From NCBI RefSeq assembly GCF_001458195.1, contig NZ_CYPU01000049.1, positions 62,001 to 126,000 of the forward strand: a stretch of 64,000 nt of DNA. The letters are read 5' to 3'. The translations under genes and the position numbers were made by a program. Source of the stretch: Ruegeria atlantica. Lineage in GTDB: Bacteria > Pseudomonadota > Alphaproteobacteria > Rhodobacterales > Rhodobacteraceae. Positions 12,849 through 28,238 of this stretch are shown piece by piece (the first letter of the stretch is position 1; each line of letters opens with the position of its first letter). The notes beneath the pieces were generated by a model. That model worked only from the letters and a program-made list of their open reading frames with translations. It made no database searches and was not told where the DNA came from.

Positions 12849-12944
12849 ATGATATATCCTCATACCTTTCACACGGAATATCACTGGAAATTGCCGTTCA
12901 CCAGCCCGATACAGAGGCGTGGATTCCAATGTGGATGTGGACCA

Positions 12945-14111
12945 ATGACCATAACGACCAGAATTCAAGAGTTTCAGCCCGCCGACCGGCTGGACGGTAT
13001 TGAGCTGTCAGAGATCGTTCGCATTTCCGAACAGGCCGCGCGCCTTCGGGCGCAGGGTGTCGACGTAATCGCGCTCAGCACTGGTGAGCCTGATTTCCCA
13101 ACGCCGTCGCATGTCGTTGAGGCGGCCAACCGCGCAGCTATTGACGGGCAGACGCGATACCCCGCAACGGCAGGAACGCCCGCTTTGCGATCAGCGATAG
13201 CGACTGAGGCTGGCGCGCATCCCGAGAACGTAGTCGTTTCGACGGGTGCCAAGCAGGTTTTGTCCTGCGCAATGATGGCAACTCTGAACCCCGGTGATGA
13301 AGTGATTATGGCTGCTCCATTCTGGACAAGCTATGCGGATATGGTCAGTTTGGCTGGCGGTGTCCCCGTAGTCGTCAGCTGTCCGGCGACGCAGAAATTC
13401 AAACTGACGCCGGATCAGTTGGAGGCCGCGATCACCCCGCGCACGCGTTGGCTGCTGCTGAATTCCCCGTCCAATCCAACTGGCGCGGTCTATTCCAAGG
13501 CGGAATTGCAGGCGCTGGGCGCGGTATTGCAAAACTATCCTCAGGTCTGGGTAATTTCTGACGAGATTTATCAACACCTATCATTTGTGCCTTTCACGCC
13601 CTTTGTGCAGGCTGTTCCCGCATTGGCGGAACGAACGTTGATCGTAAACGGCGTGTCCAAGGCCTATTCCATGACAGGCTGGCGCATCGGGTGGGGTATC
13701 GGCCCTGCTGAGTTGATCAAGGCGATGGTTGCCGTGCAGGGGCAAATCACGTCGGGGGCGTGTTCGATTGCCCAGGCTGCAGCATTGGAGGCCATCACCG
13801 GGCCGCAAGGCTTGCTGGCAGAACGCTGTCAGGCAATGCGAGCGCGCCGCGATCTGGTTGTCGAAGGGCTAAACGCCGCTGGTCTGGAATGTGCCCTGCC
13901 GGATGGCGCGTTTTACGTCTTTCCCAAAACTCACGCGAAAATGGCCACAGACCATGAATTCTGTCGCTTTCTGCTGGATGAGGCGGGTGTGGCGCTGGTG
14001 CCGGGGCGTGCGTTTGGGATGTCGGGGCATTTGCGGCTTTCTTTTGCCTATGCCGCTGAAAGCCTGCAAGAAGGTATGCGCCGTATCGCGGAAGCTACCG
14101 CCAAATTGTAA
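12945..14111 (+). CDS. Class I/II PLP aminotransferase, aspartate-aminotransferase-like
   Basis: 388 residues from ATG 12945. The longer frame beginning at 12849 would overlap the LysR start region and lacks family similarity. Motifs are IALSTGEPDFPTP (N-terminal arm), NSPSNPTGAVY, SDEIYQHL and the PLP lysine in NGVSKAYSMTGWRIGW. It transfers amino groups between amino and oxo acids. It is first in a four-gene operon ahead of a 2-oxoacid dehydrogenase E1, suggesting it makes the 2-oxoacid that E1 then decarboxylates. Substrate not determined. Confidence 0.88.
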   Translation: MTITTRIQEFQPADRLDGIELSEIVRISEQAARLRAQGVDVIALSTGEPDFPTPSHVVEAANRAAIDGQTRYPATAGTPALRSAIATEAGAHPENVVVSTGAKQVLSCAMMATLNPGDEVIMAAPFWTSYADMVSLAGGVPVVVSCPATQKFKLTPDQLEAAITPRTRWLLLNSPSNPTGAVYSKAELQALGAVLQNYPQVWVISDEIYQHLSFVPFTPFVQAVPALAERTLIVNGVSKAYSMTGWRIGWGIGPAELIKAMVAVQGQITSGACSIAQAAALEAITGPQGLLAERCQAMRARRDLVVEGLNAAGLECALPDGAFYVFPKTHAKMATDHEFCRFLLDEAGVALVPGRAFGMSGHLRLSFAYAAESLQEGMRRIAEATAKL

Positions 14112-14135
14112 CCAAATAACTCCGGAAGACACCCA

Positions 14136-16328
14136 ATGGATCGCGCCCAGATCGTTCACGAGAATTTCCTGACCCGGGTCGCCAATCGCGACTTTCCCGA
14201 CGGAGTAAACCCGCGGCAGGGTCTGAGCAATACCGATGTGGTGTCGCTTTTCCGGTCACAGGTCCTTAGCCGTGCGTTGGACCGGACAAGCCGGGCGATG
14301 CAGAAGGCGGGGCAGGGGTTTTACACTATCGGATCATCCGGCCACGAAGGGATGGCCGCCGTGGCGCATGCCTTGCGCCCGACCGATATCGCCTTTCTTC
14401 ACTACCGGGACGCGGCGTTCCAGATCGCGCGGGCTGAGCAGGTGCCGGGCCAGCAGATCGCGTGGGACATGCTGCTGAGTTTTGCCTGTTCGAAAGAGGA
14501 TCCGACCTCGGGCGGGCGGCATAAGGTACTGGGGTCCAAAGCGTTGACGATCCCACCGCAGACCTCGACTATCGCTAGCCACTTGCCCAAGGCGGTGGGC
14601 GCTGCGTATTCGCTAGGTGCCGCGCGGAGACACGATCCTGAACACCGTGAACTGCCCTTGGACGGGATTGCGATGTGTTCCTTCGGGGATGCCTCGGCCA
14701 ATCATTCTACAGCGCAAGGCGCGATCAACACCGCAGGCTGGACCAGCGTGCAGTCGACGCCTCTGCCGCTGTTGTTTGTGTGTGAAGATAACGGGATCGG
14801 AATCTCGGTCAAAACGCCAAAAGGCTGGATACAGGCGTCGATGGAACACCGCCCCGGGATCAAGTATTTTCAGGCCAACGGTCTGGATATCTATGAGACC
14901 TTCGCGGTGGCGCAAGACGCCGCCGAGTATGTCCGTACCCGCCGGAAACCGGCCTTCCTGCATCTGAAAACCGTGCGTCTTTACGGCCATGCGGGCGCAG
15001 ATGTGCCGACCACGTACCTGCCGAAGTCCGAGGTTGAGGCGGACGAGGCCAACGATCCCCTGCTGCACTCGGTGCGCTTGCTGGAACAAGCCGGGGCATT
15101 GGCGCCGGAACAGGCGTTGAAAATCTACGAAGATACCTGCGCCCGCACGGACCGCATTGCGGCGGAGGCCGCAACCCGCCCGCATCTGACTACTGCGTCC
15201 GAGGTCATGGCCAGCCTGATCCCACCCAAACGCGCCTGCAAGCCCAACAACGGCCCCAGCGCCGAAGCGCGCGCCAAGGCCTTTGGCGGCGACACGCGGG
15301 CAATGGATGATCCGCAACCCATGAGCCGTCTGATCAACTGGTCGCTGACCGATCTGATGCTGGAACACGGCGAGGTCGTCTGCATGGGCGAAGATGTCGG
15401 CCGCAAGGGCGGCGTCTATGGCGTGACCCAGAAACTGCAGCAACGCTTTGGCCCGGACCGGGTTATCGACACGCTGTTGGATGAGCAGTCCATTCTGGGA
15501 CTGGCCATTGGCATGGGGCATAACGGGTTCCTTCCGATCCCCGAAATCCAGTTCCTCGCTTACCTGCACAATGCCGAGGATCAGATCAGGGGCGAGGCCG
15601 CGACCCTGCCCTTTTTTTCGAACGGGCAGTTCACCAACCCGATGGTTCTACGCATCGCGGGGCTTGGGTATCAGAAAGGGTTCGGCGGCCATTTCCACAA
15701 TGACAACTCGCTGGCAGTCCTGCGCGACATCCCCGGCGTGATCATTGCCTGCCCATCGACTGGCGCGGATGCGGCGAAGATGCTGCGCGAATGCGTACGG
15801 CTGGCGCGCGAAGAACAGCGGGTCGTGGTCTTTCTGGAACCTATTGCGCTTTATCCGATGCGCGATCTGCACGATGCACAGGACGCAGGCTGGATGACGA
15901 CGTATCCGTTGCCTGACCAGAGTATCGCGCTGGGTGAGGTGGGCGTGTATGGCGAGGGTAAAGATCTGGCCATCGTCACTTATGGAAACGGGCATTACTT
16001 GTCGAAACAGGCTCTGCCCGAGTTGGAGGCAGCAGGCGTGAAAACCCGTATCATCGACATGCGCTGGCTGGCACCTCTCCCGATTGAGGATCTGTGTCAG
16101 GCCACAAAGGGTTGCAAACACGTCCTTATCGTCGACGAGTGTCGCCGGACCGGCAGCCAGTCCGAGGAGCTGATGACCTTTTTCACCGAAAACAGTCCCA
16201 CGACCCCAACTGCACGCGTCGTGGCCGAAGATTGTTTTATCGCCACTGGACCCGCCTATGCCGCTCCGCTGCCGTCGAAAGAGGGGATTGTCGCCGCTGC
16301 GCTAAAACTGACGGAGGGCCGCTCATGA
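14136..16328 (+). CDS. 2-oxoacid dehydrogenase E1 with alpha and beta subunits fused
   Basis: 730 residues. The first half is an E1-alpha thiamine-diphosphate domain (FYTIGSSGHEG near residue 65, then the GDASAN ThDP motif). The second half, from about residue 390, is E1-beta (LMLEHGEVVCMGEDVGRKGG, GLAIGMGHNGFLPIPEIQF). Such enzymes decarboxylate branched-chain or pyruvate-type 2-oxoacids. No E2 or E3 gene lies nearby, so it either borrows a partner elsewhere or releases its product to another acceptor. It starts 25 bp after the aminotransferase gene, and its stop overlaps the acyltransferase start (ATGA). Confidence 0.88.
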   Translation: MDRAQIVHENFLTRVANRDFPDGVNPRQGLSNTDVVSLFRSQVLSRALDRTSRAMQKAGQGFYTIGSSGHEGMAAVAHALRPTDIAFLHYRDAAFQIARAEQVPGQQIAWDMLLSFACSKEDPTSGGRHKVLGSKALTIPPQTSTIASHLPKAVGAAYSLGAARRHDPEHRELPLDGIAMCSFGDASANHSTAQGAINTAGWTSVQSTPLPLLFVCEDNGIGISVKTPKGWIQASMEHRPGIKYFQANGLDIYETFAVAQDAAEYVRTRRKPAFLHLKTVRLYGHAGADVPTTYLPKSEVEADEANDPLLHSVRLLEQAGALAPEQALKIYEDTCARTDRIAAEAATRPHLTTASEVMASLIPPKRACKPNNGPSAEARAKAFGGDTRAMDDPQPMSRLINWSLTDLMLEHGEVVCMGEDVGRKGGVYGVTQKLQQRFGPDRVIDTLLDEQSILGLAIGMGHNGFLPIPEIQFLAYLHNAEDQIRGEAATLPFFSNGQFTNPMVLRIAGLGYQKGFGGHFHNDNSLAVLRDIPGVIIACPSTGADAAKMLRECVRLAREEQRVVVFLEPIALYPMRDLHDAQDAGWMTTYPLPDQSIALGEVGVYGEGKDLAIVTYGNGHYLSKQALPELEAAGVKTRIIDMRWLAPLPIEDLCQATKGCKHVLIVDECRRTGSQSEELMTFFTENSPTTPTARVVAEDCFIATGPAYAAPLPSKEGIVAAALKLTEGRS

Positions 16329-17359
16329 CCCGCACAGCTGTCGTGATCTGCCCCGGTCGGGGTACATACAACAAGCCCGAGCTTGGCTATATGCATCGCC
16401 ATCACGCGCAGCAGACTGCGATGTTTAGGCGCTTCGACGCGATACGTGCGGAAGCAGGGCAAGAGGCCGTTACCGCATTGGATGGCGCAGCGCGGTTCAC
16501 AGTTTCAAAGTATTCAAAAGGCGATATTGCCTCACCGCTCATCTACGCAGCTTCGCTGGCGGACGCGCAATCGTTGGCCGATGATATCGAGGTGGTCGCG
16601 GTCACCGGGAACTCGATGGGGTGGTATATTGCGCTGGCCGCTGCCGGGGCGTTGTCGCCTGAGGACGGGTTTCGCGTCGTGAACACGATGGGAACACTGA
16701 TGCAGGATCACCTGATCGGTGGTCAGTTGGTTTATCCCTTTGCCGACGACGGTTGGGCGGACGACGCTGTTCGCAAGGCAGAGCTGCTGGCGGATGTAAA
16801 ACGCATCAATGCGATGGCAGGTCACGACCTTGCTTTGTCAATTGATCTGGGTGGAATGCTGGTTCTGGCAGGCAATGAAATGGGGCTGAAGGCTTTCGAG
16901 GCGTCACAACCCACCGTGCAGGACCGTTTCCCGATGCGCTTGCCAAACCATGCCGCGTTTCACACATCCTTGCAGGCACCGGTCGCTGCCGAAGGGCGTA
17001 CGCTCTTGGGCGCGGATTTGTTCCGACAGCCTGAACGCCCCCTGATCGACGGTCGCGGAAAGGTTTGGTGGCCGGGTGCGACGGATACGCAGGCGCTTTG
17101 GGATTATACCCTGGGCCACCAAGTGACCGAACCCTATGACTTTACCCGAGCGATCCAGACCGCCGCGCATGAGTTCGCGCCAGACGTGTTCATTGTTACT
17201 GGCCCCGGCGCGACCTTAGGTGGCGCAGTGGCGCAATCTCTTGTTCTGGCGAACTGGCGTGGCATGGGTAACAAGGCTGATTTTCAAGCGAAACAGGATG
17301 CGCAACCCTTCCTGATCGCCATGGGGCGCGAGGATCAAAGAGCGCTTGCAACCGGCTGA
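16325..17359 (+). CDS. FabD-like ACP S-malonyltransferase-family protein
   Basis: 344 residues from ATG 16325, which overlaps the E1 stop. Acyltransferase signatures: N-terminal PGRGTYN, nucleophile elbow GNSMGW (GxSxG, with Asn where FabD has His), and the catalytic His candidate in NHAAFHTSL. FabD moves malonyl groups from CoA to acyl carrier protein, but no ACP or ketosynthase gene is close. Coupling to an E1 suggests it accepts an acyl group from decarboxylation of a 2-oxoacid; this is inference. Confidence 0.75.
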   Translation: MTRTAVVICPGRGTYNKPELGYMHRHHAQQTAMFRRFDAIRAEAGQEAVTALDGAARFTVSKYSKGDIASPLIYAASLADAQSLADDIEVVAVTGNSMGWYIALAAAGALSPEDGFRVVNTMGTLMQDHLIGGQLVYPFADDGWADDAVRKAELLADVKRINAMAGHDLALSIDLGGMLVLAGNEMGLKAFEASQPTVQDRFPMRLPNHAAFHTSLQAPVAAEGRTLLGADLFRQPERPLIDGRGKVWWPGATDTQALWDYTLGHQVTEPYDFTRAIQTAAHEFAPDVFIVTGPGATLGGAVAQSLVLANWRGMGNKADFQAKQDAQPFLIAMGREDQRALATG

Positions 17360-17398
17360 CACTGCCCTGATGATCCGCGCAATTTCAAGGAGCGCGAC

Positions 17399-18670
17399 GT
17401 GAGCGACCACAACCAGTCCCTTTGGCTGAACACATGCCGTGAACTTGTCGAACCCAGTGTTTCGACCGGTGATATCACTGTTGATCTGGCGGTGATCGGT
17501 GGTGGGTACACCGGCTGTTCTGCGGCCCTGACTGCAGCCAAGGCTGGTGCCTCGGTCTGTCTGCTTGAGGCGCATGACATCGGTCACGGCGGATCGGGCC
17601 GCAATGTCGGGCTGGCGAATGCGGGGCTGTGGCTGCCGCCCGCTGAGATTCGCGCGCATCTCGGCGACACGATTGGGGACCGGTTGATTGACCTTCTGGC
17701 TGCTGCCCCGTCAGAGGTGTTCAACCTGATCGACCAGCATGGGATAAACTGCGAACCCGTGCGCAACGGAACTCTGCATTGTGCGCATTCGGCTGCGGGT
17801 CTTCGGGATCTGCAGGTCCGCCATGCGCAACTCAGTGCTGCTGGTGCACCGGTTGAGTTGCTGTCTGCAGAACTGACAGCGCAGCGAACGGGCAGCGCGG
17901 CCTTTGGCGGTGCTCTGTTCGATCCGCGCGCCGGGACCATCCAGCCATTGGCATATGTGCGTGGATTGGCCCGTGCCGGGATCGAGGCTGGCGCGTCAGT
18001 TTCCACGCAAGATCCGGTTCTGTCCATGCAGCAAATGGATGGAATCTGGGAGGTGAAGACTGCTCGGCGCACAGTGCGCGCCAAATGGGTCATTCAGGCG
18101 ACCAATGCCTATCACCGTGATCTGACCGCATCGGCCCCCGCCTATGTGCCGGTCTATTATTTCCAATATGCCACGGCCCCATTGTCGGACAATCTGCGCG
18201 CTAGCGTTATGCCGGGCGATGAGGGGTGCTGGGACACAGACCTAATCATGACCTCGTTCCGAATGGATCAAGAGGGGCGGTTTATCATCGGTGCCATGGG
18301 TGATCTGGATCAGGCAGGCGGCGGGATTCACAAGAGCTGGATCAAGTGCAAACTGGCTCAGTTATATCCGCAACTGAATGATCAGCCGTTGGTCGAAGGT
18401 TGGCATGGCCGCATAGCCATGACGTCGGACCACATCCCGAAGATTACGCAGATCGGTCCCAACGCTCTGTCCGTTCATGGATTTTCGGGGCGTGGAATCG
18501 GGCCAGGCACTGTCTTTGGCCGCCTTGTTGCCCAAAGTCTGTTGCAGGACGACCCAAGTCTTTTGCCAGTGCCCGCAGTCCCCGAGTATCAGGAAAAGTG
18601 GATAGGGCTACGTCGCGCCTATTTTGAAACCGGCGCGGCGCTGACCCATTTTGTCAAAGCGCGGTTCTGA
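17399..18670 (+). CDS. FAD-dependent oxidoreductase, D-amino-acid-oxidase/GlpD type (DAO)
   Basis: 423 residues from GTG 17399, with AAGGAG 6 nt upstream. The N-terminal FAD motif is VIGGGYTGCSAALTAAKAGASVCLLEA. The C-terminal DAO motif HGFSGRGIGPGTVFGRLVAQ places FAD. These enzymes oxidise amine or amino-acid substrates (glycine, sarcosine, gamma-glutamyl polyamine classes). It is the last gene of the LysR/aminotransferase/E1/acyltransferase operon and may supply the oxo acid or imine. It ends 3 bp before the convergent SDR stop. Confidence 0.85.
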   Translation: MSDHNQSLWLNTCRELVEPSVSTGDITVDLAVIGGGYTGCSAALTAAKAGASVCLLEAHDIGHGGSGRNVGLANAGLWLPPAEIRAHLGDTIGDRLIDLLAAAPSEVFNLIDQHGINCEPVRNGTLHCAHSAAGLRDLQVRHAQLSAAGAPVELLSAELTAQRTGSAAFGGALFDPRAGTIQPLAYVRGLARAGIEAGASVSTQDPVLSMQQMDGIWEVKTARRTVRAKWVIQATNAYHRDLTASAPAYVPVYYFQYATAPLSDNLRASVMPGDEGCWDTDLIMTSFRMDQEGRFIIGAMGDLDQAGGGIHKSWIKCKLAQLYPQLNDQPLVEGWHGRIAMTSDHIPKITQIGPNALSVHGFSGRGIGPGTVFGRLVAQSLLQDDPSLLPVPAVPEYQEKWIGLRRAYFETGAALTHFVKARF

Positions 18671-18672
18671 CC

Positions 18673-19374
18673 TCAGACCGCGCGGGTGATGCCGCCATCC
18701 ACCCGGATGTTCTGACCGGTGATATAGCCGCCGCCTTCTGACGCAAGCATCGCCACGACCGAGGCGATCTCGTCATAGCTGCGTCCATAGCGGCCCATCG
18801 GGATGCGCGCGCGGAATTCCTCTTTCTCTGGCAGGCTGTCGATGAACCCTGGCAATACGTTGTTCATCCGGATGTTGTCAGCCGCGTAATGATCCGAGAA
18901 CAGCTTGGTGAAGGCCGCCAAACCCGCGCGAAAAACACCCGAGGTTGGGAAAACAGGGTCGGGTTCGAAAGCGGCAAAGGTTGAAATGTTGATGATCGAC
19001 CCGCTACCTTGTTTCTGCATGATCGGTGTCACCAGCCGGGTTGGTCTGACGGCGTTCAGGAAATAGACGTCCATACCGGTGTGCCAATCCTCGTCCGACA
19101 GCTCCAGCACTGGCGCGCGCGGGCCATGACCGGCCGAGTTGACCAGCACGTCGATACGCCCCCAATGGGACATCGCGGTATCGACCAGTTTTTGCAGATC
19201 ATCCGTCGACTGGTTTGACCCGGTCACGCCAACACCACCCAGCTCGTTCGCCAGTGCCTCACCCTTGCCAGAAGACGACAGGATGCCGACCTTAAATCCA
19301 TCTGCGGCCAGACGTCGGGCTGAATCTGCGCCCATTCCGCTGCCGCCCGCTGTTATCAGCGCCACTTTGGTCAT
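18673..19374 (-). CDS. Short-chain dehydrogenase/reductase with atypical active site
   Basis: 233 residues from ATG 19374, with GGAG upstream; the frame to 19431 is rejected. The Rossmann motif (TAGGSGMGADSARRLA) and NSAG are normal, and the C-terminus GYITGQNIRVDGGITRAV is family-typical. The usual catalytic YxxxK is replaced: the aligned segment reads SGVFRAGLAAFTK, so Tyr becomes Ser and Lys becomes Arg. It may therefore use a different acid or have non-redox activity. It is divergent from a GcvA-like LysR, its probable regulator. Confidence 0.85.
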   Translation of the reverse strand: MTKVALITAGGSGMGADSARRLAADGFKVGILSSSGKGEALANELGGVGVTGSNQSTDDLQKLVDTAMSHWGRIDVLVNSAGHGPRAPVLELSDEDWHTGMDVYFLNAVRPTRLVTPIMQKQGSGSIINISTFAAFEPDPVFPTSGVFRAGLAAFTKLFSDHYAADNIRMNNVLPGFIDSLPEKEEFRARIPMGRYGRSYDEIASVVAMLASEGGGYITGQNIRVDGGITRAV

Positions 19375-19453
19375 GTGATTTCTCCATTCATTGATGGCAT
19401 GAAGATGCGCTTTGGCGATCTGATTGACCAATCAGTTCTGCTGGCCTTATGGT

Positions 19454-19464
19454 GTAGAAAAACT
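19454..19464 (+). promoter_or_regulatory. Candidate LysR operator element GTAGAAAAACT (copy 1)
   Basis: An 11-mer 24 bp upstream of the LysR ATG at 19478, in the divergent SDR/LysR spacer. The identical 11-mer recurs 23 bp upstream of another GcvA-like LysR gene (46174-46184). Conserved identity and spacing suggest a shared regulatory or promoter element. Confidence 0.4.
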
Positions 19465-19477
19465 ACAGGATGCTACG

Positions 19478-20329
19478 ATGACGGCTCTTCCCCCTCTGAA
19501 CGCTTTGCGGGCCTTCGAAGCTTCGGCGCGGCATCTGAACTTTCGCTTGGCTGCCGAGGATCTGGGCGTCACCCAAGGTGCTGTCGCCCAGCAAGTACGC
19601 GGACTTGAGGCGCGATTGGCTGTGACGCTCTTTGACCGCCTGCCGCGCGGCCTTGCGCTGACCGAGGCTGGGCGCAGGTTCCATGCGCCCTTGCGCCGGG
19701 CCTTCCGACTGATCGAAGAGGCCGTCGAGGATCTTTCTGGGGACAGACAAATAACTATATCTGTCACGCCCAGCTTTGCCTCGAAATGGCTGGTTCCACG
19801 ACTTCCGGACTTTACGCGGCACCACCCTGATATTGCCGTGCAGGTCGACGCGCGGGAACGGCTGGCGGATTTCCAGGCAGACGGTGTCGACATTGCTGTT
19901 CGGCAAGGGCGTGCGCCGTTTGGATCCGGGGTGGTCGCAGTGCCTCTGTTTTCCACAACTTTCGTTCCGGTTTGCGGTCCTGAGATGGCGGCCAGAATTG
20001 CGCATCCTGCTGACATGACAAAGCACACTCTGCTGAACGACACCCATGGGCTGTGGCCTTTGTTTCTGCAGCGTGCAGGGATCACGGGCAAGCCGAAGAT
20101 GATGAGTTTCAGCCAGACCAGCCTTGCCATCGACGCAGCCGTGTCGGGCCAGGGTGTTGCGCTTGCTAACGAACCGCTTGTTTCTGCCCAGTTGGCCGCC
20201 GGTCAGTTGGTGCGCCCGATCCCGGACGAGCTGGTCGAGGACTTGGGCTTTTACATCGTAACACCCAAACAGCCACGCCAACCCGCGCTGGTCGCAGTGA
20301 TGAAAGACTGGTTGCTGTCTCAATCCTGA
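19478..20329 (+). CDS. GcvA-like LysR-family regulator
   Basis: 283 residues from ATG 19478, with AGGA upstream; the extra residues from 19424 are not family-like. The HTH is strongly GcvA-type (PPLNALRAFEASARHLNFRLAAEDLGVTQGAVAQQVRGLE). It is divergent from the SDR gene by about 100 bp, so it is its likely regulator. The 3' end overlaps the convergent LysR by 10 bp. Confidence 0.88.
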   Translation: MTALPPLNALRAFEASARHLNFRLAAEDLGVTQGAVAQQVRGLEARLAVTLFDRLPRGLALTEAGRRFHAPLRRAFRLIEEAVEDLSGDRQITISVTPSFASKWLVPRLPDFTRHHPDIAVQVDARERLADFQADGVDIAVRQGRAPFGSGVVAVPLFSTTFVPVCGPEMAARIAHPADMTKHTLLNDTHGLWPLFLQRAGITGKPKMMSFSQTSLAIDAAVSGQGVALANEPLVSAQLAAGQLVRPIPDELVEDLGFYIVTPKQPRQPALVAVMKDWLLSQS

Positions 20330-21222
20330 AGCGTCGCTGCGATGGCTTCGATCCTGTCACGCAACCAGCGATGTGCCGGGTCGTTGGAAGATCTTTGGTG
20401 CCAGACCATGTAGATAGAGACAGGGTCGCACGCGAAGGGCAGAGGTGCACAATCCAACGCATGTAGCGGCCCGTGTTTCATCAACGCCGTATCGGTTGAA
20501 ATCAGGTCGCCGCCTTTCACAAATGAGGTAATGGCATTGAAATGCGGCAAGGTAACCGTCGGTGGCCTGATCTGGTTTTGATCGACACCCCGCATAACAG
20601 CGCGCGAGCTGCGGCCATCCGCAAAGCGCACTTCGACATGTTCGGTTTCGCAATAGGTTTCCCAACTGTCCGGAGGAGATCGTCGCGTGCTATCATAGTA
20701 GATCATCAACGGGCTGCTGAGGATGCGCTTTTGAAAGATGTCCGGCCCATCCGGCGGCAAAGGCGTCAGCATCAATTGACACCGGTCACTGCGCAGCAGC
20801 TCAGGGTCTGGAACACCTGATGGGATAAACCCCAACCCCAGCCGCACGCCTTCGGTCCGAACCTTTTGCAGCAATTGCGGGAAAATCAATTCCCTCGGCA
20901 TGTCGTTTGTGGCGATGTAAAAGACTATCTCTTCGGACAGCGGGTCGAACGGGCGGTCCTCGGTCAGCGCGCGCATATTGTCCAGAACCTGCCGCACAGG
21001 GTCTTTCAGGGACAAGGCGCGCTCAGTAGGCGTCAGACCCTGCCCTGATCTGATGAACAACGGATCGCCCAGAACCACCCGAAGTTTGGACAGGGTGTGG
21101 CTGATGGCCGATTGCGTCACGCCAAGCCGATCTGCGGCCTTGGACACCGAGTTTTCTTCGAGAATGGTTAGAAAGACCCTCAGGACTTTGCCATCCAGAT
21201 CCATGAAATCTGTTTTGCTCAT
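20320..21222 (-). CDS. LysR-family regulator divergent from the reductive dehalogenase
   Basis: 300 residues. The HTH reads KVLRVFLTILEENSVSKAADRLGVTQSAISHTLSKLR, followed by a substrate-binding domain of the kind seen in aromatic-catabolism LysRs (similarity by eye only). The ATG is 76 bp from the dehalogenase start, with the palindrome ATTCATGAAT (21236-21245) between them, a plausible operator. Inference: it senses a halogenated or phenolic substrate and activates the dehalogenase gene. Confidence 0.85.
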   Translation of the reverse strand: MSKTDFMDLDGKVLRVFLTILEENSVSKAADRLGVTQSAISHTLSKLRVVLGDPLFIRSGQGLTPTERALSLKDPVRQVLDNMRALTEDRPFDPLSEEIVFYIATNDMPRELIFPQLLQKVRTEGVRLGLGFIPSGVPDPELLRSDRCQLMLTPLPPDGPDIFQKRILSSPLMIYYDSTRRSPPDSWETYCETEHVEVRFADGRSSRAVMRGVDQNQIRPPTVTLPHFNAITSFVKGGDLISTDTALMKHGPLHALDCAPLPFACDPVSIYMVWHQRSSNDPAHRWLRDRIEAIAATLQD

Positions 21223-21298
21223 ACCGCTTATGATTATTCATGAATGGATTTACTGTCCACGCCGCATTAGGTGAGACCTAGAAATCAGGAGGCGCACG

Positions 21299-24200
21299 AT
21301 GGGGATCCGCTTTTTCTCAGACAAGAACCGGCCGGTCCACATGGGGCCTTATCCGTTGGAGCGGTTGGCACGTCAGAGCGTTGTGCCGGACCTATCTGCC
21401 GTGCCGCCGATGCCCGTACTCAGTTTTCATCGGCCGGATCAGCCTGAAAGCATCGTCAACGCCATGGGTGAGTTTCAGGCGATGATGGACGCTATTCGTG
21501 ATGGGTTCGTGAATGCCGTGCCCTCTGAAATCCCGTCTGATCCGACCGCGCGCGCCCATCACTTGAAGGCTTTTGGCTATTTCAATGACGCGTCGATGAT
21601 GGGATGTGGGCCTTTGCCTGCCGAGGCGATGCTGCCCCAGCCGCGTATTAACCCCGACATAGATCGACTGGCCCATGCGCTGAAGACCCGGCAGACCAAG
21701 ACGCTGGCGTCGGGTATTGATGTCATCATGGCCGACCTGAAAGAAAGCATGGAGGCCGCGCCCAAGCCGATGGACACCCACCGCCATGCCATCGCCTTTG
21801 TCTATGAACACAACCGTGATCCGAACCCGGATGAGCCCGGCTCTGATTGGATCATGGATGCGCAGGATCACCGTTCCTGTTTGCTGGCGACCGAAAATGC
21901 GGTGGTGATTGCCAATTACATCCGGTTGTTGGGGTTCGATGCGCGGGCGCATACCGCGATGTCCTCTGAGGTTGATCTTGGTAAACTGGCGGTGGCGGCT
22001 GGTTTGGCCTCGGTCGAGAATGGCGACGTCGTTGTGCCGTGGCTAGGCACGCGGTTTGGTCTGGCGGCTGTTACAACCGAGATGGAGATTGCGCATGATC
22101 AACCCCTGCAATCCATGGCGCAGCAACCGTGGTTTCGCACTCAGGGTCCGGCGTGGTGGCTGGGAACGGGGTTCGCCAAGAACGCGCTGAACCGGGATGC
22201 TTACGCCAAACGACGCTACGTGGACGGAGCGCATCCGTTCGAGAAGCTTAAGCGCGTCGAGGACCCGACGACCTACATCGACGAAGAAAACGTGGCCCGC
22301 GTTCCCAAACGCGCCGACATGTTTGCCCGCGCACAATTCGGGGATATGGGCAAACCGCTGCAGGATGCAGCCAGGGGGGGGCACTACGTGCGCAAGGCCG
22401 CCCCCAGTTTCGCGCAACGCCGTTCACTGGGCGCATTTGTGCTTTTGCAGGATGGCGACAGCGCGGATGGCCCGCGCCCGACCGATGCCGCCCGAAATGC
22501 CGCGAATATCAAGGCCGCGACCTATTTCATTGGGGGCGATGCCGTGGGCCTCAGCCGTTGTCCTGAATGGGCGTGGTACTCTCACGACGCGACCGGAGAA
22601 GAGATCAACCCGACCCACGATCAGGCCATCAGCATGATCATCGACCAGGGCTATGAAACGATGGAGGGGTCCAGCGGCGATGACTGGATCGCAGTTGCCC
22701 AGTCGATGCGCGCTTATCTGCGGTTTTCGCTACTGGGCGGTGTGATCGCGCAGCAGATCCGCAACCTCGGTTACAAAGCCAAGGCGCATACGGTCATGGA
22801 TGGCGAAGTGCTGCAACCGCCGCTTTTGCTGCTGTCTGGATTGGGCGAGGTCAGCCGGATTGGCGAGGTCATCCTGAACCCTTATCTCGGGCCCCGGCTC
22901 AAGTCCGGTGCGGTGACGACCGACATGCCGATAGAGCACGACAAACCGATTGATTTTGGCCTGCAGACTTTCTGTGAAAGCTGCAACAAATGCGCGCGCG
23001 AATGTCCGTCGGGGGCAATCACCGCGGGGCCGAAACTCATGTTCAACGGCTATGAGATCTGGAAATCCGACAGCCAGAAATGCGCAACCTACCGCGTGAC
23101 CACACCGGGCGGTGCGATGTGCGGGCGCTGCATGAAGACGTGCCCGTGGAACCTTGAGGGCATCTTCAAAGAACGCCCGTTCCGCTGGGCCGCGATGAAC
23201 ATCCCGAAAGCCGCGCCGGCATTGGCGAAACTGGACGATGCCGTGGGTAATGGCGGTTTGAACGACACCAAGAAATGGTGGTGGGATATCGAATTGCAGG
23301 CGGATGGAGCTTACCGCCCGACGAAAAATCCGCTGAACCGGCGTGACCTGCAAACGGATCTGGACCTGCAATTCGAAGATCAGACATTAGCCGTCTATCC
23401 TGCCTATCTGGCCCCCCATCCGTGGCCATATCCTTTTGCGATGGACCGCGAGGCCGGGATTGCGGCCTATCAGGCGATGGTGTCAGCCGAAGAATACAAA
23501 AACCGCAAGGCAGCAGGGGATACGTCGATCGTGCATCGGTACTCGATCGCGGGCGATGCGCCGGTGATGCGAGTTGCGCTGACCAAGGTCGACAAGATGA
23601 CGGCGGATGTGACCAAGTATGAATTCTCGGCCCTGAATGGCGCGCCGTTACCGGATTGGACCGCCGGGGCGCATCTGGATGTGCTGGTCGCGCCTGAGTT
23701 TCTGCGTCAGTATTCTATGTCGGGGGACCCATCGGACGGGTCAGTCTATCAGATCGGCGTCCTGCGCGAGGATGAAGGTCGTGGTGGTTCGGCCCTGTTG
23801 CATCGAATCTTCAGCGAGGGGCGCAAGGTCTTCATCTCGAAACCGATCAACCATTTCGAACTGGATGAAACCGCAACAAAGACCTTCCTGATGGGTGGTG
23901 GGATCGGCATCACCCCGATGATTGCATTTGCTCATCGATTGCATGCGCTGGGCAAGCCGTTCGCACTACACTATTCCGCCAGCACCCGTGCTGGGGCCGG
24001 GTACCTGGACGATCTGGCGGCGATGCCCTGGGCCGACCACGTGCATTTTCATTTCTCGGATGAAGGAACGCGCGCCGATCTGGATGCAGTCCTGTCGGGT
24101 TATCAGGAAGGGTGGCACGTCTATACCTGCGGACCGGATCGCTACATGGACGGTGTCATACAAGCGGCCGACCGGCAGGGATTTCCTGAAGAGGCGCGGC

Positions 24201-24511
24201 ACTTGGAGTATTTTTCGGTCCCCGAACAGCCGGAGTATGAAAATCACTCCTTCAGGTTGAAGCTGGCAAAGTCGGGTAGGGAACTGACCGTCCCCGAAGA
24301 CAAAGATGCCGCTCAGGTTTTGAACGAGGCGGGTATTCATGTGGATGTGAAATGCGCCGACGGCATATGTGGCGTCTGCAAATGCAGTGTGGTTTCCGGC
24401 GATATTGAGCATCGTGATTTCGTTCTGTCCAACAAACAGCGCGAGGGCGCGATCATTTTGTGTCAAAGCCGCGCGGCTGAACCTGACGGTGTGATTGAAC
24501 TCGACCTCTGA
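21299..24511 (+). CDS. Self-sufficient catabolic reductive dehalogenase (RdhA-ferredoxin reductase fusion)
   Basis: 1070 residues, start supported by AGGAGG-type RBS. Residues about 1-700 form the corrinoid/iron-sulfur part: cluster 1 at C559, C562, C565, C569; cluster 2 at C595, C608, C611, C615. Y427 (CPEWAWY) is a candidate catalytic Tyr, by analogy with Y426 of NpRdhA. Residues about 755-970 are an FMN/NAD(P)H reductase (RQYSMS at 803-808, GGGIGITPM at 866-874, CGPDRYM). Residues about 985-1070 are a plant-type 2Fe-2S domain (C1019, C1024, C1027, C1055). No Tat signal, so the protein is cytoplasmic. It resembles the BhbA/NpRdhA class, which removes halide from halogenated phenols using NADPH electrons. 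Residues 200-270 and 480-550 look like duplicated corrinoid-fold halves. Halophenol activity is inference. Confidence 0.85.
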   Translation: MGIRFFSDKNRPVHMGPYPLERLARQSVVPDLSAVPPMPVLSFHRPDQPESIVNAMGEFQAMMDAIRDGFVNAVPSEIPSDPTARAHHLKAFGYFNDASMMGCGPLPAEAMLPQPRINPDIDRLAHALKTRQTKTLASGIDVIMADLKESMEAAPKPMDTHRHAIAFVYEHNRDPNPDEPGSDWIMDAQDHRSCLLATENAVVIANYIRLLGFDARAHTAMSSEVDLGKLAVAAGLASVENGDVVVPWLGTRFGLAAVTTEMEIAHDQPLQSMAQQPWFRTQGPAWWLGTGFAKNALNRDAYAKRRYVDGAHPFEKLKRVEDPTTYIDEENVARVPKRADMFARAQFGDMGKPLQDAARGGHYVRKAAPSFAQRRSLGAFVLLQDGDSADGPRPTDAARNAANIKAATYFIGGDAVGLSRCPEWAWYSHDATGEEINPTHDQAISMIIDQGYETMEGSSGDDWIAVAQSMRAYLRFSLLGGVIAQQIRNLGYKAKAHTVMDGEVLQPPLLLLSGLGEVSRIGEVILNPYLGPRLKSGAVTTDMPIEHDKPIDFGLQTFCESCNKCARECPSGAITAGPKLMFNGYEIWKSDSQKCATYRVTTPGGAMCGRCMKTCPWNLEGIFKERPFRWAAMNIPKAAPALAKLDDAVGNGGLNDTKKWWWDIELQADGAYRPTKNPLNRRDLQTDLDLQFEDQTLAVYPAYLAPHPWPYPFAMDREAGIAAYQAMVSAEEYKNRKAAGDTSIVHRYSIAGDAPVMRVALTKVDKMTADVTKYEFSALNGAPLPDWTAGAHLDVLVAPEFLRQYSMSGDPSDGSVYQIGVLREDEGRGGSALLHRIFSEGRKVFISKPINHFELDETATKTFLMGGGIGITPMIAFAHRLHALGKPFALHYSASTRAGAGYLDDLAAMPWADHVHFHFSDEGTRADLDAVLSGYQEGWHVYTCGPDRYMDGVIQAADRQGFPEEARHLEYFSVPEQPEYENHSFRLKLAKSGRELTVPEDKDAAQVLNEAGIHVDVKCADGICGVCKCSVVSGDIEHRDFVLSNKQREGAIILCQSRAAEPDGVIELDL

Positions 24512-24640
24512 TCTGAGGTCTGAAAACGACTTCGATAAACACAAAAATTGGTCGTTCCAGCCATGGACGCCGTGGGGCTGCTGCACTAACGTCCCCCGCG
24601 AACCCCAGTGAATCCTGATCAACAGGTGCGAGGTATTTTC

Positions 24641-25507
24641 ATGGACTATCACAGCCCCGCCAGCTTTGCCGAGGCGTCGGCTCTGGCCGCGAACGCGACG
24701 GGCATTACCCGGTTTCTGGCAGGCGGCACCGATGTTCTGGTGCAGCTGCGCTCGGAACTTGTGACCCCCGACACGCTGATCGACATCAAAAAGATTGAGG
24801 GCGTCAGCGACATCACCAAAAATGCCGACGGTAGCTGGACGATTGGCGTCGCCGCCACCGGTGCCGAGATGAGCGAACACCCCGAATTGGGCGGCGATTG
24901 GCCCGGCGTGGTCGAGGCGATGGACCTGATCGGATCAACCCAAGTGCAGGGGCGCGCAACGCTGACCGGGAACCTGTGCAATGGCTCTCCGGCGGCTGAT
25001 TCCGTGCCTGCTATGGCCGCCGCCGGAGTGACCGTTACTGTCACAGGACCCGAAGGTACGCGCGAAGTTGCTGTCGAAGAAATTCCGACCGGCCCCGGCA
25101 AAACGTCGCTGTCCAAGGGAGAGCTGGTCTCGGCCGTCCATATCCCTGCACGGGGTGAGGATGGCGGCGACGCCTATCTGCGGTTCATACCACGGACCGA
25201 AATGGACATTGCCGTCGTTGGCGTGGGTGTAAACCTTCGTTTGGATGGCGACACTGTCACCGAAGCCCGCGTGTCGCTGGGTGCTGTCGCTCCGACCGTT
25301 CTGCTGGTCGAAGACTGTGCCAAAGCCATCATCGGCAGTACACTGGACGACGCCGCGCTTGATGCGCTGGCTGCTGCGGCATCCGCTGCGTGCAACCCGA
25401 TTGACGACAAGCGCGGCACCATCGCGTTTCGCACCGAGGTCGCTGGCGTTCTGGCCAAGCGCGCCGCGAAAATCGCCTATGCCCGTGCGAAGGGAGAACA
25501 AGCATGA
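24641..25507 (+). CDS. Molybdenum hydroxylase FAD-binding subunit (CoxM/CutM type)
   Basis: 288 residues from ATG 24641, with GCGAGG upstream. FAD motifs AGGTDVLVQL (about residue 30) and QGRATLTGNLCNGSPAADSVPA (TxGGN-like, about residue 100) define the medium subunit of xanthine-dehydrogenase-family enzymes. It passes electrons from the 2Fe-2S subunit to NAD or another acceptor. It is the first of four overlapping genes (FAD, FeS, Mo, MoaD-like). 130 bp separate it from the dehalogenase gene with no obvious terminator. Confidence 0.88.
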   Translation: MDYHSPASFAEASALAANATGITRFLAGGTDVLVQLRSELVTPDTLIDIKKIEGVSDITKNADGSWTIGVAATGAEMSEHPELGGDWPGVVEAMDLIGSTQVQGRATLTGNLCNGSPAADSVPAMAAAGVTVTVTGPEGTREVAVEEIPTGPGKTSLSKGELVSAVHIPARGEDGGDAYLRFIPRTEMDIAVVGVGVNLRLDGDTVTEARVSLGAVAPTVLLVEDCAKAIIGSTLDDAALDALAAAASAACNPIDDKRGTIAFRTEVAGVLAKRAAKIAYARAKGEQA

Positions 25508-25983
25508 GCAAGTTCCACGTATCCACCACTGTAAACGGCGACTCGGTTGAATACCTCTGCGACCCGCGCGAAACCCTGCTGGACTGTCTGCGCGACAAGC
25601 TGAACCTGACCGGCGCGAAAGAAGGCTGTGGTACTGGTGACTGCGGCGCGTGTTCCGTCTCGGTCGATGGGCGCTTGGTCTGTTCCTGCCTGATGCTGGG
25701 GGTAGAGGCCGATGGCAAGCAGATCGAAACGGTCGAGGGCATCGCAGACGGCGACGTTCTGCACCCGCTGCAGCAGAAGTTTATCGAACACGCCGCGCTT
25801 CAGTGCGGCATCTGCACACCGGGCATTCTGGTCGCGGCCAAGTCGCTGCTGGAAAAGAACCCCAACCCGACCGAAGAGGAAACCCGGTATTGGTTGGCAG
25901 GGAACCTGTGCCGCTGCACCGGTTATGACAAGATCATTCGCGCCGTCATGGAAACGGCAGAAGAACTGCGGGAGGCTTCGTAA
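25504..25983 (+). CDS. Molybdenum hydroxylase 2Fe-2S subunit (CoxS type)
   Basis: 159 residues. The plant-type 2Fe-2S motif is CGTGDCGACSV (about residues 40-60), and the second cluster has CGICTPG and CRCTGY, both needed for electron transfer to FAD. This is the full CoxS/XdhC-like small subunit. The start overlaps the preceding stop by ATGA and its stop abuts the next start (TAATG), so expression is coupled. Confidence 0.92.
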   Translation: MSKFHVSTTVNGDSVEYLCDPRETLLDCLRDKLNLTGAKEGCGTGDCGACSVSVDGRLVCSCLMLGVEADGKQIETVEGIADGDVLHPLQQKFIEHAALQCGICTPGILVAAKSLLEKNPNPTEEETRYWLAGNLCRCTGYDKIIRAVMETAEELREAS

Positions 25984-28238
25984 TGGCACTCGACGATCGC
26001 AAATCTGAATTCACTTTTGTTGGCACGCGACCGAACCGTCCCGATGGGTTGGACAAGGTTACGGGCCGCGCCAAGTTCGGGGCCGATATGTCGGCACCCG
26101 GTATGTTGCACGGCGCGATCCTGCGCTCGCCTCACGCCCATGCGCGGATTGTGAAAATTGACACGTCGAAAGCCGAGGCGCACAAGGATGTCAAAGCCGT
26201 CGTGACCCGCGCGGATTTTGCGGACGTCCCGTTCAAACCGGGACTGGAGGGCGAATTCTGGAATGTTCTGGAAAACGTCATGGCAGGCGAAAAGGCTCTG
26301 TATGACGGACACGCCGTTGCGGCTGTAGCAGCTACGTCTGCACTTGCAGCGCGCGATGCGCTCAAGCTGATCGAGGTTGAATACGAGGTGTTGCCCCACG
26401 TCACCGATGTGGACAAGGCGATGGCCTCGGATGCTCCAGTCATTCGCGAAGGTGCCGCGGACTATTCAGTTCCCGAAGGAATGCATCCAAACGTCGTGCG
26501 GTACCACGAAAGCGGACACGGTGATGTCGAGGCTGGCTTTGCCGAGGCCGATCTGGTCATCGAAGACAGCTTTGTCACCGAGGCGACCCATCAGGGTTAC
26601 ATCGAGCCGCACGCCTGTTTGGGTATGCTGGGCAATGATGGCAAGGGTGAGCTGTGGTGCACGACCCAGGGCCACTGGATCGCGCAGAAAACCTGTGCAG
26701 CGCTGTTGGGCATTGAGACCTCACAGCTGCGCGTCACGGCATCCGAGATTGGTGGTGGCTTTGGCGGCAAGACGACCGTCTTCATCGAACCCGTCGCGCT
26801 GGCGCTAAGCCGTAAGGCCAACCGTCCGGTCAAACTCGTGATGACCCGGTCCGAGGTGTTCCGGGCAACCGGCCCCACTTCGTCGGCGTCGATGGACATC
26901 AAGATCGGCATGAAGAAGGACGGTACCATCTCGGCCGCGCAGGGCGTGTTCCGCCTGCAAGGCGGCGCGTTTCCGGGTGCGCCGGGCGATATGACCGCCA
27001 TGTGTGCCTTTGCGCCTTACAATCTGACCAACGTCAAACAGGTTGGCTATGACGTTATGGCCAACCGACCGAAACAGGCAGCCTACCGTGCACCCGGTGC
27101 ACCAATGGGGGCATTTGCCGTTGAGTCGGTGATTGATGAGCTGTGCAAAAAGCTGGACCTTGATCCTGTCGATGTACGCCTGAAAAATGCGGCGTATGAA
27201 GGCACCAAGGCCAGCTACGGCCCGCGTTATGAACGCATCGGTCTGGTTGAGACGTTGGAAGCCGCCAAGGCGCATCCGCACTATTCAGCGCCGCTGAAAC
27301 CGGGGCAGGGACGCGGGATCTCCTGTGGGTTCTGGTTCAACCACGGTGGAGAGACCTCGGTGTCTCTATCTCTGTCTGAGGACGGCTCGGCCCAGTTGAT
27401 GGTTGGTACGCCGGACATCGGCGGCTCGCGTGCATCTATGGCGCTGATGGCGGCTGAGGTTCTGGGTATTCCCTACGAAAACATCCGGGTGACCATCGCC
27501 GATACAGCGACGCTTGGGTACAACGACGTCAGCCACGGCTCTCGCGTGACCTACGCTTCTGGCCTGGCCACCATCAAAGCAGCCAATCACGCGGTCGAAA
27601 AACTGTGCGAACGCGCGGCGGCCAGCTGGGGAATTCCGACCGACGCGGTGAAATGGGAAAACGGCTGTGCGGTGCCCTCTGGCCCCAATGCCGGTGACTT
27701 CGATCCGCGCCCGCTGGCCGATATCACGGCCCATATGGGTTCGACCGGCGGTCCGATCTCGGGCCACTTTGAGGCGACCCCGGAAGGCGCGGGCGTGTCC
27801 TTTGGTACCCATATCGTTGATGCCGAGGTTGATCCGGAAACCGGCAAAACCGCGATCACTCGCTACACGGTTGTTCAGGATGCCGGTAAGGCCATCCATC
27901 CGACCTATGTGGAAGGCCAGTATCAGGGCGGTGCCGCGCAAGGCATTGGTTGGGCTTTGAACGAGGAGTATATCTACGGCGAGGATGGTCGCCTGCAGAA
28001 CTCGATCTTCCTCGACTATCGCATCCCCGTCGCCAGTGACCTGCCGATGATCGACACGGTGATTGTCGAAGTGCCAAACCCCGGCCACCCATTCGGTGTG
28101 CGTGGCGTCGGTGAGACCGGCATCGTGCCGCCCTTGGCTGCCATTGCCAACGCCGTGTCGCACGCGGCGGGCGTACGTATGCGACAACTGCCAATGTCAC
28201 CGCCGCGTATTCTGGCCGCGCTGAAGGACAATGGTTGA
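25983..28238 (+). CDS. Molybdenum hydroxylase catalytic subunit (xanthine dehydrogenase family)
   Basis: 751 residues. Mo-cofactor motifs GGGFGGKTTVFIEP (near 260) and the catalytic-Glu motif GVRGVGETGIVPP near the C-terminus are present. The active-site segment reads AYRAPGAPMGAF. It is neither AYXCSFR (form I CO dehydrogenase) nor the form II AYRGAGR, so CO oxidation is unlikely. Such enzymes hydroxylate heteroaromatic or aldehyde substrates with water-derived oxygen. The substrate is unknown, but the dehalogenase neighbour makes an aromatic one plausible. Confidence 0.88.
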   Translation: MALDDRKSEFTFVGTRPNRPDGLDKVTGRAKFGADMSAPGMLHGAILRSPHAHARIVKIDTSKAEAHKDVKAVVTRADFADVPFKPGLEGEFWNVLENVMAGEKALYDGHAVAAVAATSALAARDALKLIEVEYEVLPHVTDVDKAMASDAPVIREGAADYSVPEGMHPNVVRYHESGHGDVEAGFAEADLVIEDSFVTEATHQGYIEPHACLGMLGNDGKGELWCTTQGHWIAQKTCAALLGIETSQLRVTASEIGGGFGGKTTVFIEPVALALSRKANRPVKLVMTRSEVFRATGPTSSASMDIKIGMKKDGTISAAQGVFRLQGGAFPGAPGDMTAMCAFAPYNLTNVKQVGYDVMANRPKQAAYRAPGAPMGAFAVESVIDELCKKLDLDPVDVRLKNAAYEGTKASYGPRYERIGLVETLEAAKAHPHYSAPLKPGQGRGISCGFWFNHGGETSVSLSLSEDGSAQLMVGTPDIGGSRASMALMAAEVLGIPYENIRVTIADTATLGYNDVSHGSRVTYASGLATIKAANHAVEKLCERAAASWGIPTDAVKWENGCAVPSGPNAGDFDPRPLADITAHMGSTGGPISGHFEATPEGAGVSFGTHIVDAEVDPETGKTAITRYTVVQDAGKAIHPTYVEGQYQGGAAQGIGWALNEEYIYGEDGRLQNSIFLDYRIPVASDLPMIDTVIVEVPNPGHPFGVRGVGETGIVPPLAAIANAVSHAAGVRMRQLPMSPPRILAALKDNG

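Follow-up and report, generated by a model that had tools for sequence, protein, structure and literature searches.

A 64,000-nucleotide stretch of the Ruegeria atlantica contig NZ_CYPU01000049.1 (hereafter the window) carries on its forward strand, at positions 21299-24511, a single open reading frame (ORF) of 1070 residues encoding a self-sufficient catabolic reductive dehalogenase, which we call rdhA. It starts with ATG, with AGGAGG just 5', and is the only copy in the genome, where two further matches span the reductase part of the protein only. The product, RdhA, scores 196.4 bits against the NCBIfam model TIGR02486 (RDH), over the cut-off of 160.35, and contains the Pfam domains Fer2, Fer4, Fer4_7 and Fer4_16, all over cut-off. 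In a sequence comparison with PDB entries, NpRdhA of Nitratireductor pacificus (6zxu/4ras) was matched by residues 160-728 and, separately, by residues 2-104 (E-value 7.7e-153), and phthalate dioxygenase reductase (2pia) by residues 757-1067 (2.9e-53). These matches bear out the BhbA/NpRdhA-type self-sufficient enzyme that a first-pass annotation of this DNA had proposed.

The domain plan is that of a fusion between a reductive dehalogenase and a phthalate dioxygenase reductase (RdhA-PDOR). The N-terminal part (residues ~2-380, positions 21302-22438) contains a vestigial duplicate of the cobalamin domain as in NpRdhA, the duplication being visible in the NpRdhA alignment as the separate matches of residues 2-104 and 160 onwards. 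It is followed by the functional corrinoid domain with two 4Fe-4S clusters (residues ~381-730, 22439-23488; both sets of boundaries are approximate), the clusters themselves lying at 22973-23143. The C-terminal module comprises phthalate dioxygenase reductase-like flavin and NAD(P)H domains (23567-24217) and a plant-type 2Fe-2S domain (24251-24508; Pfam Fer2 at residues 990-1059), all of these on the forward strand. The reductase part contains the motifs RQYS (803-806), which we take to be the flavin motif, and GGGIG (866-870) and CGP (944-946), presumably the NAD(P)H motifs. At the N-terminus, MGIRFFSDKNRPVHMGPYPLERLAR, inspection by eye, with no predictor run, revealed neither a twin-arginine pair with a hydrophobic stretch nor anything else resembling a twin-arginine translocation (Tat) signal. 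Relative to NpRdhA, the protein has about 42 additional residues near positions 105-159. An insert has been described in RdhA-PDOR fusions (PMC10463259), to which these additional residues may correspond.

The ligands and active-site residues are complete. Eight cysteines (559, 562, 565, 569 and 595, 608, 611, 615) align with the 4Fe-4S ligands of NpRdhA, with which 215 of 499 aligned residues are identical, and four more (1019, 1024, 1027, 1055) were located by motif as 2Fe-2S ligands. The active-site residues named for NpRdhA, F291, S422, M423, Y426, K488 and R552 (PMC10463259), correspond in the alignment to F342, S469, M470, Y473, K535 and R599; F342 is positioned ahead of the functional corrinoid domain and the other five are inside it. 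The Tyr/Lys/Arg set is thus kept as Y473, K535 and R599: the catalytic tyrosine of the first-pass annotation is conserved, and only its numbering as Y427 has to be corrected, since the NpRdhA residue is Y426. We aligned 139 homologous sequences (the window, loci L004-L137 and L158-L161; matches of at least 1000 residues in an ungapped frame with no stop, so that shorter or broken copies were excluded), 130 of which are distinct. All 18 residues, that is the six active-site residues and the twelve cysteines, are the same in every one of these 130, including the most distant of them, BhbA and its Nitratireductor relative, at 51% identity.

RdhA is a well-supported member of a known and already characterised class that includes BhbA, JtRdhA and Ros_A3X954. 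As the first-pass annotation had stated, few members have been characterised; Roseobacter-clade members are already in print (PMC10463259, PMC13101508). JtRdhA of Jhaorihella thermophila contains flavin mononucleotide (FMN), a 2Fe-2S cluster, two 4Fe-4S clusters and base-off cobalamin and uses NADPH; NADPH-driven debromination and deiodination of phenols was measured, also under air, the chloro compounds tested were not converted according to the same report, and the enzyme enables E. coli W to grow on 3-bromo-4-hydroxyphenylacetate (PMC10463259). RdhA shares with it the RdhA-PDOR fusion, the missing Tat signal, the duplicated corrinoid domain, the key residues and a marine host. The likeness is to the published description of JtRdhA (PMC10463259), and it is for JtRdhA that activity was measured. 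BhbA (WP_015585978, plasmid pBHB of Comamonas sp. 7D-2) is a collinear full-length fusion with 49.8% identity and all 18 residues in common. Its gene is clustered on a conjugative plasmid with insertion sequence elements and genes for protocatechuate 4,5-dioxygenase, whereas Ruegeria rdhA is found genus-wide without such a cluster and, in the relatives L029 and L035, on scaffolds of 3.1-3.2 Mb. A Nitratireductor relative has pobA and genes for ring cleavage in its cluster. NpRdhA (4ras, 6zxu) shares the corrinoid and 4Fe-4S domains, the vestigial N-terminal domain and the active site, but is described as having no reductase domain (PMC10463259). Ros_A3X954 of Roseobacter sp. MED193, which converts 2,6-dibromophenol to 2-bromophenol, is likewise a Roseobacter-clade catabolic enzyme without a Tat signal; it is likened by its published description (PMC13101508). 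By tree entry only, RdhA of Ruegeria pomeroyi DSS-3 (AAV93904) is placed among the catabolic RdhAs (PMC10463259). Three groundwater RdhA sequences had their best matches, at <60% identity, in Ruegeria (PMC3832961), which means that by 2013 databases already contained a Ruegeria RdhA, and homologues of bhbA have already been described as widespread in the Roseobacter clade (PMC13101508).

Taken together, RdhA is very probably a cytosolic, self-sufficient, cobalamin-dependent reductive dehalogenase that removes ortho bromine or iodine from phenols with NADPH. By homology with the characterised enzymes, it would debrominate or deiodinate ortho-halophenols, and its cofactors, electron path and halide preference would be theirs. 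Since all parts of JtRdhA are also found in RdhA, RdhA is best explained by the JtRdhA cycle. Hydride from NADPH would be passed to the reductase flavin, which electrons would leave one at a time, reaching the base-off corrinoid by way of the 2Fe-2S domain and both 4Fe-4S clusters. Once reduced, the cobalt would abstract the ortho bromine or iodine from the phenol, and a proton from Y473, assisted by K535 and R599, would yield the dehalogenated phenol and halide. In the genome of the window, CobN is over cut-off, its two pieces being counted together, and four cobalamin riboswitches are present, all on contigs other than that of rdhA.

The spread of the gene was followed through the genus and the family; like the architecture, the ligands and the active-site residues, spread and selection were established directly here. 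A full-length rdhA is present in 53 of 54 genomes of the genus. In per-genome matches, identity is at least 80% in 52 genomes and only 71% in G037, with no match in G047. In the family, 112 of the 295 genomes examined, drawn from 294 genera, match at E<=1e-150; in G151, G154, G321 and G339, among others, the match is partial or split. A search of genome contigs yielded 352 stretches encoding an RdhA relative, of which the best 80 were kept (the 80 loci below); these include records titled Ruegeria, Shimia, Tropicibacter and Thalassobius. Among plasmid records, nine match at 1e-60, in eight cases across at least 80% of the query, and a search of viral contigs gave four pattern matches with no RdhA relative, thus no sign of viral carriage. 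In a tree of 130 sequences, several inner and outer nodes of which are poorly supported, the window falls within a 38-leaf clade with a support of 0.958, made up of the window, 31 Ruegeria-titled loci, one Silicibacter, one Rhodobacteraceae KLH11, one alphaproteobacterial metagenome-assembled genome (MAG) and three others; one Ruegeria-titled locus, L037, lies outside it. Over the whole gene, the ratio of nonsynonymous to synonymous substitution rates (dN/dS, NG86) was 0.04-0.10 against ten chosen Ruegeria homologues, with rough values for the eight in which dS exceeds 1. Such ratios show that rdhA is not a chance ORF, and the genus-wide spread together with purifying selection points to a long-kept, selected gene, so that rdhA looks like a core gene of the genus.

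Several irregular copies were seen in the same searches. Three full-length copies are present in G036, on contigs C115, C88 and C78; their products are 85, 71 and 69% identical to RdhA of the window. Signs of decay were found in G321, where rdhA is split into two adjacent matches (C1:2006484-2009686), and in G245, where a partial second copy has internal stops (C12:38798-40090). Relatives with 74-78% identity in MAG records titled Nitratireductor, Oricola and Rhizobiaceae (L042, L059, L079) suggest inter-order transfer or binning errors.

A LysR-type regulator gene (20320-21222, reverse strand) is divergent from rdhA, as the first-pass annotation had noted; the two are separated by a 76-bp spacer (21223-21298), and an orthologue occupies this position in 36 of the 80 loci. 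We aligned 34 spacers, those of the window and of 33 of the 34 loci with an ORF-called LysR. The block TATGATTATTCATGAATGGATTTACTGTC (21229-21257), a candidate LysR site or promoter, is kept in Ruegeria and its kin. Columns TATGA.TA..CATGAATGG.TTT...GTC each agree to 90% or more across the 34 sequences, the stretch on the rdhA side being variable. The block has the look expected of a shared operator or promoter, and the divergent LysR is a plausible regulator of rdhA, as its position faintly suggests. Calling neighbours from ORFs drops any LysR that overlaps rdhA by more than 60 bp, and gave 34 of 134 loci as against 36 of 80 by tblastn. The 134-locus set contains at least seven repeats of the same region, and one neighbour comparison left out L033 and L035. 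No neighbour common to all genera was found in the loci examined, where greedy ORF calling is noisy in GC-rich DNA.

Links to aromatic catabolism were sought around rdhA and elsewhere in the genomes. A pobA-like gene lies within 500 bp of rdhA in at least L095 (G249), L092/L160 (G125), L047 and L159 (G279), the call in L047 resting on phmmer only and L047 and L092 possibly being close kin. In L158 (G346), hmgA is divergent from a MarR-rdhA pair, and a gene for an FAD monooxygenase lies further along on the hmgA strand. MarR-like genes also stand immediately 5' of rdhA, in the same orientation, in L137, L123, L126 and L130, and in Shimia loci a gene of the fumarylacetoacetate-hydrolase family, well below the HpaG cut-off, precedes it. 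The pobA and hmgA links that exist fit p-hydroxyaryl substrates. In the genome of the window, homogentisate dioxygenase (HmgA) is over cut-off at 634.3 bits; PobA reached 60.3 bits at best (cut-off 538.7) and PcaH 52 bits (cut-off 296.4), homogentisate being the only other ring-cleavage route searched. Among the 54 genomes of the genus, 21 encode PobA at E<=1e-100, 18 of them over cut-off, and one of these is G047, which is without rdhA; the core status of rdhA therefore does not follow PobA. Across the family (E<=1e-120), PobA occurs in 88 of 112 rdhA-positive and 110 of 183 rdhA-negative genomes (Fisher p 0.0013), and HmgA in 98 of 112 and 99 of 183 (p 1.2e-9), both tests ignoring ancestry and genome size.

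The cellular role of RdhA would most likely be the removal of natural bromo- and iodophenols, whose ring could then be channelled into the usual catabolism of p-hydroxyaryl compounds; the route found in this genome is that of homogentisate and not that from 4-hydroxybenzoate to protocatechuate through PobA and PcaH. We tentatively propose a core, mostly vertically kept, LysR-controlled debrominase/deiodinase, as opposed to a pollutant-degrading accessory, by which natural halogenated p-hydroxyphenyl compounds such as halotyrosine and its keto and acetic acids might be used or detoxified via homogentisate. The enzyme class is published and has been proposed for bioremediation. What is new here is the near-universal, selected, genus-core status of a B12-dependent dehalogenase, with 53 of 54 genomes in the genus and 112 of 295 in the family. 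If the proposal is true, RdhA would be a built-in aerobic sink for marine organobromines. The genus-core status makes the natural, oxic role of these enzymes testable in a culturable organism.

A number of observations weigh against this account of the enzyme and its role. Most loci show no link of the pobA or hmgA type to rdhA, the co-occurrence counts disregard phylogeny and genome size, and 7 of the 112 rdhA-positive genomes are without both PobA and HmgA. Among the neighbours identified between 12849 and 28238 there is no clear aromatic gene, and a promoter scan of 21000-24900 gave one promoter-like site (1.6 in shuffles, standard deviation 1.2), hence none above chance; the same interval contains six terminator-like sites (3.5 in shuffles, standard deviation 2.0). 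An AlphaFold model of RdhA, built from 46 close sequences (the window and 45 chosen from the 80 loci, with at least 73% identity), has a mean predicted local distance difference test (pLDDT) value of 69.9 and a predicted template-modelling score (pTM) of 0.62. Much of its N-terminal and reductase parts is good and much of the corrinoid/4Fe-4S core is poor, with pLDDT below 50 at residues 414-470 and 499-536 of the corrinoid domain, so that the pocket is neither supported nor opposed.

Iodine could take the place of bromine as the natural target, RdhA then deiodinating iodophenols or iodotyrosine-like compounds. With three iodinated phenols, JtRdhA reaches deiodination rates of 66-84% of its highest rate (PMC10463259), and reduction of 2,4,6-triiodophenol has been reported for a Pararhodobacter relative of Ros_A3X954 (PMC13101508). 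However, bromophenols are described as plentiful in marine systems (PMC13101508) and no pointer to iodine was seen at the locus, which leaves this alternative rather unlikely.

The genes downstream of rdhA raise a further alternative. A CoxMSL-type molybdenum hydroxylase spans 24608-28238 on the forward strand, with a coxM-like FAD subunit (24608-25507, ATG 24641 being by eye the likelier start), a coxS-like 2Fe-2S subunit (25504-25983) and a coxL-like molybdenum subunit (25983-28238), all three identified by Pfam and NCBIfam scans. From the divergent LysR and this hydroxylase the first-pass annotation had suggested a halo-aromatic catabolic locus; in such a locus LysR would sense a halo-aromatic compound, RdhA dehalogenate it and the molybdenum hydroxylase oxidise the product. 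The divergent LysR with its conserved spacer agrees with such a locus, as do the position of coxM, on the same strand 97-147 bp 3' of rdhA in 33 of the 36 loci with coxM found (of 134), and the catabolic clusters around the relatives BhbA and Nitratireductor OM-1 RdhA. Other observations speak against it. CoxL is downstream in 35 of the 80 loci (36 if anywhere in the locus); LysR and CoxL flank rdhA jointly in 33, LysR occurs without Cox in three (L028, L032, L034), Cox without LysR in three (L029, L038, L056) and neither in 41. In G047 (L155), coxM, coxS and coxL (90, 94 and 94% identity) come immediately after the pipecolate-oxidase-like gene, with rdhA absent and no LysR match at the site, which shows that cox does not depend on rdhA. 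CoxM is a neighbour of rdhA and probably not its partner, and the hydroxylase probably has a substrate of its own, its large subunit being 94% identical in a species without rdhA. That subunit is below cut-off for all 13 NCBIfam models matched, the best being 4-hydroxybenzoyl-CoA reductase alpha (454 bits, cut-off 994.55). Besides rdhA, the interval 12849-28238 contains one ORF with no family assigned and genes for an aminotransferase, an E1 dehydrogenase, a pipecolate-oxidase-like protein, a short-chain dehydrogenase/reductase, two LysR and CoxMSL. The upstream enzyme genes are not aromatic-specific, and the adjacent ring-hydroxylation and ring-cleavage genes that mark a BhbA-type cluster were not recognised among the genes of this interval. 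With PobA and PcaH both below cut-off in the genome as well, a dedicated halo-aromatic locus is unlikely and not supported, and the core-gene account takes its place. A PADLOC scan returned no defence system, and Rfam at gathering scores a single tRNA in the window.

Two departures from catabolic dehalogenation find little room. A drift to another corrinoid redox reaction, such as a queuosine-like reduction, is suggested by a match to the QueG model and by the grouping of RdhA and QueG in one cobalamin enzyme class (PMC10463259), but that match reaches 26.9 bits against a cut-off of 200 and all six NpRdhA active-site residues are retained, so that it is very improbable. A respiratory enzyme using an organohalide as terminal electron acceptor, which the breadth of TIGR02486 as a reductive dehalogenase model would accommodate, can practically be set aside given the N-terminus without Tat-like features, the fused NAD(P)H reductase, the vestigial N-terminal duplicate and a best match to the catabolic NpRdhA, the respiratory PceA being far weaker in the same PDB comparison (1.7e-29).

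Elsewhere in the genus we observed a second reductive dehalogenase, unfused and about 390 residues long (L162:2818-3987 and L163:2761-3936, both on the reverse strand). Similar matches occur in 11 of the 54 genomes, one with an internal stop, and a shorter one in G048, with none in the genome of the window. The one compared with PDB, which looks cytosolic and PceA-like, has no obvious Tat-type signal by eye and is nearer to respiratory PceA (1.5e-51) than to NpRdhA (3.4e-31). Both of those scanned, at 186.7 and 172.1 bits, are over the RDH cut-off.

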